Assembly: GCA_040754335.1 (NCBI GenBank)
Contig: JBFMCV010000003.1
Coordinates: 421,356 to 485,355 of the forward strand
Direction: 5' to 3'
DNA length: 64,000 nucleotides
Origin: Thermodesulfobacteriota bacterium
Lineage (GTDB): Bacteria > Desulfobacterota_D > UBA1144 > Nemesobacterales > UBA2774
Below, piece after piece: positions 10,020 to 10,727 of the stretch. The notes under the pieces were generated by a model. The model saw only the letters and a program-made list of their open reading frames with translations, was not told the origin of the DNA and ran no database searches. The position numbers were made by a program, and so were the translations under genes. Within the stretch, counting starts at the first letter, position 1. Each line of letters starts with the position of its first letter.

Positions 10020-10057
10020 AAAAAAAGACTGGGGGTGATTTTTGAATCACCCCCAGT
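10020..10057 (-). terminator. Perfect 13-bp hairpin terminator
   Basis: ACTGGGGGTGATT (10028-10040), four-base loop, AATCACCCCCAGT (10045-10057), then on the minus strand C and seven T (10026-10020). It lies upstream of, not after, the VOC gene. Therefore it ends a separate minus-strand transcript. Confidence 0.85.
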
Positions 10058-10105
10058 AGCCAAGAAGGACCCAAGGTGTTAGGGAGGGTATTGGCCCGGA
10101 TAAAA
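10021..10105 (-). ncRNA. Predicted small RNA with C-rich anti-SD stretch
   Basis: Inferred about 85-nt minus-strand transcript. A GATAAT -10 (10117-10112) gives a start near 10105. The body contains ATACCCTCCCTAACACC, a C-rich stretch complementary to Shine-Dalgarno sequences, and ends in a perfect 13-bp hairpin plus T7. No open reading frame with a ribosome site is seen. Upstream is a five-half-site operator array. The combination of promoter, C-rich seed and strong terminator is typical of trans-acting small RNAs; expression is untested. Confidence 0.5.
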
Positions 10106-10111
10106 GGTGGC

Positions 10112-10186
10112 ATTATCAGTACACCATTCCATGATTAAGGAGATATTTAGAAATAATTAAGGCTGTGTTAATGTTTGAGTTAAGGT
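10112..10186 (-). promoter_or_regulatory. Five-half-site tandem operator array and promoter of the small RNA
   Basis: On the minus strand there are 7-bp half-sites CCTTAAC, CATTAAC, CCTTAAT, TCTAAAT and CCTTAAT, with spacers of 5, 4, 4 and 4 bp. Sixteen bases after the last is GATAAT (10117-10112); TGTACT at ten bases is a weaker alternative. The half-sites match those at 1211-1250, so the same OmpR/PhoB-type regulator probably binds both. Confidence 0.55.
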
Positions 10187-10316: not shown

Positions 10317-10727
10317 ATGGAAAGATGGTATGTTCTGACTTTGCTTGCCCTTGTTTGTTTTTCTCTCGGCAGTTTTCTGGGGAAGGTCGCGTCCTTTAAG
10401 GACATCCCGTATCGCGTTTATTTCTTTGAAGCCGTCGGCACGCTTACAGTGTTCACGACATTCGTCGTCTGGAACAGGAACGCCATATTCAGCAACTTTT
10501 CCGTGAACTTCCCTGCCCTCCTCATGGGTCTTACCTGGGGCGTCGGCACGGTGCTCTTTATCGTCGCTATCAAATACGCGAAACTTTCAGTCCTCGTACC
10601 TCTGTCCGCGGTCTATCCCGCGCTGACGGTAATACTGGCGTTCGTATTCCTCGGCGAGAGGCTCGGGCCGAGGGAGATAACCGGAGTGGTATTCGCAGTC
10701 GTCTCGGCGGCGCTCCTGGCGAAGTAA
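10317..10727 (+). CDS. EamA-domain membrane protein (single-domain DMT transporter)
   Basis: 136 residues with about five transmembrane helices and one EamA domain. The C-terminal signature VLVPLSAVYPALTVILAFVFLGERL is typical of drug/metabolite transporter repeats. Most EamA transporters carry two repeats, so this is a half-size protein that would need to dimerise, as in related single-repeat families. AAGGAG lies about eight bases before ATG. It stands alone; the substrate is unknown. Confidence 0.85.
   Translation: MERWYVLTLLALVCFSLGSFLGKVASFKDIPYRVYFFEAVGTLTVFTTFVVWNRNAIFSNFSVNFPALLMGLTWGVGTVLFIVAIKYAKLSVLVPLSAVYPALTVILAFVFLGERLGPREITGVVFAVVSAALLAK

Follow-up and report, generated by a model that had tools for sequence, protein, structure and literature searches.

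A predicted small-RNA gene on the minus strand, between positions 10186 and 10020 of the 64,000-nucleotide stretch of Thermodesulfobacteriota DNA analyzed here (the window), is quite probably an independent member of the Pho regulon, activated by PhoB and likely to act in trans. As judged from sequence comparison, the best-supported step is activation by PhoB under phosphate limitation, which we infer from a box shared with pstS; since the promoter switch is that of the phosphate-uptake genes, the cell probably makes the RNA when phosphate is short. As a conserved sRNA gene driven by a Pho box, and found in an uncultured class, it would define both the Pho box of this lineage and part of its regulon. 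The RNA represents a family of sRNAs that is new but of a known kind: a search of Rfam gave no family at gathering score for it, with two sub-threshold matches at the locus and a tRNA elsewhere in the window.

Layout, conservation and structure of the gene

From 10186 down to 10020, the unit opens with an array of half-sites and a promoter element, continues with an RNA of about 90 nucleotides and closes with a perfect 13-bp terminator and its T-tract. An earlier note, made from the letters of this sequence, had proposed just such a combination of array, promoter, short RNA and perfect 13-bp terminator; all of these parts were found on the minus strand, and the unit is conserved in relatives. 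It sits between a divergent gene for an EamA-like membrane protein (10317-10727, plus strand; Pfam PF00892), which is its neighbor in all 14 sRNA-bearing genomes, and a VOC/glyoxalase gene downstream on the same strand (9924-9139). The 5' end was placed at 10113-10111 from the position of the -10 element, giving a predicted small RNA of about 90-94 nucleotides (10113-10020) that draws on an alignment (A5), a covariance model (R1) and the stability of its fold.

BLASTN recovered the unit in 13 relatives within its Candidatus Dadabacteria family (E-values 1e-70 to 1e-12), with array, -10 element, RNA and terminator retained; 45 genomes from outside the family gave no match. This comparative evidence shows the unit to be more than chance and backs the earlier proposal of a regulated small-RNA gene. 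The search for homologues by covariance that the note had suggested, using a model built from 14 sequences, matched the same 14 of the 16 family genomes at E of about 1e-16 or better, with 0/42 matches among other genomes of the class; phage records gave no match to the unit. Homologous records located by pattern are labeled Candidatus Dadabacteria in 8 of 11 cases and Deltaproteobacteria, Thermodesulfobacteriota or Thermodesulfobacteriales in the rest, Dadabacteria being a class within Thermodesulfobacteriota in the NCBI taxonomy. Two family genomes lack the gene. One of them, G009, has a completeness of just 59%, and a contig end truncates its EamA copy. In the other, G004 (97% complete; locus L099, G004:C11), the EamA and VOC genes are intact and side by side, and the sRNA and its box are missing. 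This is a natural loss, and it offers a comparison. Because neither box nor terminator accompanies the EamA homologues of other families, the sRNA gene appears to be specific to this family.

The VOC gene begins about 95 bp beyond the terminator in this genome and also lies downstream, on the same strand, in several relatives, an arrangement that would fit a 5' leader of the VOC/glyoxalase gene whose terminator serves as an attenuator or riboswitch platform. However, in four relatives (L006, L009, L010 and L013) the neighbor on that side is instead a DUF4159 gene running in the direction opposite to the sRNA, and the box, RNA and terminator are all kept. No alternative antiterminator helix is backed by covariation. 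Because the VOC gene has been replaced in these four genomes while the RNA persists, the RNA is independent of it, and we give the leader reading a slim chance.

Comparison of the 14 sequences shows that conservation is concentrated in the four proximal half-sites, the element TGTA(A/C)T, the start ATGCCAYC, the stretch GGGTCCTTCTTGGC and the terminator. The fold predicted for the RNA (-34.8 kcal/mol, z = -5.1 versus shuffled sequence) owes its good z-score mainly to the Rho-independent terminator at 10057-10020, which has a 13-bp stem and a 4-nucleotide loop (10057-10028) followed by a C and seven T residues (10027-10020). Compensatory changes affect 6 of the 13 stem pairs, and 99.5% of cells are paired; for the whole RNA structure the value is 97.6%, versus 30-53% for slid versions. 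Extra 5' helices (GCCA/UGGC and AUCC/GGGU) are compatible with most sequences, with no two-sided covariation among them. In the two g5 genomes (L014:1560-1674 and L015:1514-1628), the RNA contains an additional hairpin of about 14 bp just before GTCCTTCTTGGC, with one compensatory change between the two.

The most conserved unpaired stretch, GGTCCTTCTTGGC at 10071-10059, is a candidate pairing region. The C-rich octamer ACCCTCCC at 10089-10082, which the earlier note had taken for a seed pairing with Shine-Dalgarno (SD) sequences, is replaced in genus g2, for example by ACCCACCC or ACAAACCC. It is ruled out as a conserved seed, and the claim of SD pairing through it is unsupported. Of the conserved hairpin and C-rich stretch on which the note had staked its proposal, the hairpin part stands, but the exact octamer is lost in g2.

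An invariant ATGCCA at the inferred 5' end, in a frame whose first nine codons are similar among relatives, raises the question of whether the transcript opens with a leaderless small protein or a leader peptide. The frame ranges from 10 to 50 codons across relatives and is broken by indels, its variable sites fall 6/4/6 by codon position with no third-position excess, and the strongest conservation lies in the terminator and the unpaired stretch. On the basis of frame length, indel shifts and codon-position pattern, a protein product is unlikely, and we hold out little hope for it.

The Pho box at the sRNA promoter and at other genes

The array at about 10184-10134 comprises five half-sites with an 11-bp period (CTTAAC, ATTAAC, CTTAAT, CTAAAT and CTTAAT). 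The earlier count of five is therefore correct for this genome, but the alignment of 14 genomes retains four, which form the Pho box proper at 10173-10134 (CATTAACACAGCCTTAATTATTTCTAAATATCTCCTTAAT); the most upstream half-site, CTTAAC at 10184-10179, is unique to this genome and absent from its congeners. The -10 element is TGTACT (10123-10118), which starts 10 nucleotides after the box and appears as TGTA(A/C)T in 14/14 genomes. GATAAT (10117-10112), previously named as the -10, was dropped since it is not conserved in relatives. A scan with the sigma-70 consensus called no promoter at the sRNA locus, as expected where a promoter has no -35 element.

Phosphate control had been a guess in the earlier note, and it now has strong sequence support. 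We built a 40-nucleotide weight matrix from the 14 sRNA-promoter arrays alone, and located pstS loci independently of it through the TIGR02136 family model. At every canonical pstS locus of the family (13/13), the best-scoring place was a single site shortly upstream, at 10.8-33.3 bits, and box and -10 are spaced as in the sRNA promoter. None of 268,040 positions of background genomic DNA reached 10.8 bits (maximum 8.9), and 2 of 3,900 dinucleotide-shuffled pstS promoters did so. Paralogous or diverged pstS loci scored 2.6 or less. The TGTAMT of the sRNA aligns with the TTTAMT-type -10 of the pstS promoters, both starting 10 nucleotides past the box, and in the strongest cases the spacing is exactly that seen in E. 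coli PhoB promoters. In this genome, the pstSCAB-phoU operon itself (L032:3762-10972, G000:C5) carries a gene resembling low-molecular-weight phosphatases or arsenate reductases between pstB and phoU, and the products of its two permease genes are unusually long, at 541 and 765 amino acids.

The matrix also marks other promoters with this geometry. The note had implied another array with the same motif elsewhere in the window, and one of the same box type is indeed present at 1250-1211 on the minus strand; the matrix marks it, and together with TATAAC at +10 it spans 1250-1195, ahead of a calcineurin-like phosphoesterase (metallophosphoesterase) gene at 1138-371, minus strand. A further match falls in the intergenic DNA that separates a phosphate-selective porin gene (PF07396) from phoBR in this genome, where the porin promoter has TATGAT at the same offset after the box as the -10 of the sRNA.

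Other sites are weaker or stand apart. Sites beside genes for an OlsB-like acyltransferase and a glycosyltransferase are marked weakly in this genome: two divergent boxes of 4.3 and 3.9 bits lie between these genes (L036:5200-5420, G000:C3), with TATTAA and TATCGT at +10, and could possibly reflect phosphate-controlled replacement of membrane lipids. An 11.2-bit box with TATGAT at +10 stands ahead of a short, unnamed frame some 64 codons long (L033:1900-2540, minus strand, G000:C10), a candidate phosphate-controlled small protein. A looser pattern search turned up arrays beside a 5'-nucleotidase gene and between genes for a sensor kinase and a glycerophosphodiester phosphodiesterase. The nearly palindromic TTAA array upstream of the 5'-nucleotidase gene (G000:C8:45763-45799, L034) may be a different arrangement, given its score of -9.6 with the sRNA-derived profile. 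Such loose arrays numbered 16 genome-wide versus 14 in the control, so these weaker sites are suggestive at most.

The constancy of the EamA gene, 60-150 bp from the box, might be taken to mean that the box is the operator of that divergent gene and that the hairpin belongs to something else. Yet the box is oriented, with its -10 at +10 facing the sRNA, whose body and terminator are conserved and covarying; outside the family EamA occurs with neither element, and in G004 it stays although both are gone. We regard an EamA operator as having a very small probability.

Regulators, candidate targets and a proposed mechanism

The genome has two full-length regulators of the PhoB/OmpR type, at C5:200275 and C8:118224. 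The former matches the PhoB model TIGR02154 at 242 bits, under the cut-off of 296, so that its naming rests on context: it adjoins a PhoR-like HisKA/PAS kinase, beside the phosphate porin. Repeats of TTAA with an 11-bp period are used by several OmpR/PhoB-class regulators, and with a second such regulator present at C8:118224, a genuine sRNA gene might be run, in common with pstS, by another member of this family or by a general stress signal. The box, however, is common to pstSCAB-phoU and the phoBR-adjacent porin, the usual targets of PhoB, and its half-site resembles the SphR box CTTAACCT (PMC1906773). We attach a correspondingly slight probability to a different regulator and favor PhoB as the likely binder.

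Neither Hfq (PF17209) nor ProQ (PF04352) was detected in the 16 family genomes, in which control proteins were found. Any sRNA-based regulation in this family (f1) must then rely on other helpers or none, which raises the question of how an sRNA works in such a group. Complements of GGTCCTTCTTGGC with at most one mismatch did not clearly outnumber those of the reversed control across the 16 genomes once self-matches were set aside, and the non-self complements examined lie inside, or antisense to, reading frames. The motif AAGAAGGAC is not enriched ahead of ATG, and duplex energies with the start regions of pstS, EamA and VOC are not consistently better than those of shuffles. With no target found and no Hfq or ProQ detected, pairing in trans is something we infer.

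The following sequence of events would account for the conserved features. When phosphate is limiting, PhoB in its phosphorylated form, probably the product of G000:C5:200275 beside the PhoR-like kinase, would bind the tandem half-sites and replace the -35 contact, recruiting RNA polymerase to TGTACT 10 nucleotides downstream. An RNA of about 90 nucleotides would be synthesized and released at the strong terminator. It would most likely pair in trans through the conserved unstructured GGUCCUUCUUGGC, perhaps also through the adjacent C-rich stretch, probably near translation starts and without Hfq or ProQ. A bolder version, in which this PhoB-driven RNA pairs with the SD regions of many mRNAs through its conserved CCUUCUU and C-rich stretches, independently of Hfq and ProQ, and lowers translation broadly during phosphate starvation, strikes us as improbable; if true, it would spare phosphate.

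Comparison with known phosphate systems

The interest of the gene lies in clean Pho-box evidence, family-wide conservation, an uncultured class and the undetected Hfq and ProQ. The literature searched contains few sRNAs that PhoB controls directly, and one of them, EsrL, is disputed; the search found no sRNA study for the class Dadabacteria.

In E. coli, the -10 follows the PhoB box at a distance of 10 bp; in cyanobacteria, the SphR box consists of tandem CTTAACCT repeats with 3-bp linkers and an 11-bp period (PMC1906773). The Dadabacteria promoter shares with both the direct tandem repeats, the 11-bp period and a -10 located 10 bp downstream, and its box can be described as SphR-type, with a CTTAAC-like half-site, in PhoB geometry. 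Unlike those promoters, it combines four half-sites in a consensus specific to the lineage (ATTAACA-N5-TTAAC ... CTRAATA ... CTTAA), and it drives an RNA instead of a gene for a transporter or phosphatase.

Among RNAs of the phosphate response, the phosphate-induced E. coli sRNA EsrL was reported to be controlled by PhoB (Jia et al. 2023, as cited in PMC10294691), although ChIP-seq in K-12 did not confirm the PhoB site (PMC10294691). The likeness to EsrL is that of an sRNA with proposed PhoB control. In S. meliloti, transcripts that rise in phosphate starvation have been described with no evident PhoB site (PMC2573895). The archaeal sRNA132 of Haloferax volcanii builds up when phosphate is low, and phosphate ABC transporters depend on it for their rapid induction (PMC6560208); the RNA described here is likewise predicted to be an sRNA of the phosphate response, but a bacterial one. 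PsiR1, the phosphate-stress-induced RNA of Synechocystis 6803, is missing even from Synechocystis 6714 (PMC5386190). Like PsiR1, the Dadabacteria RNA is predicted to belong to the phosphate-depletion regulon of a bacterium whose Pho box is of the CTTAAC type; unlike PsiR1, it has been kept family-wide.
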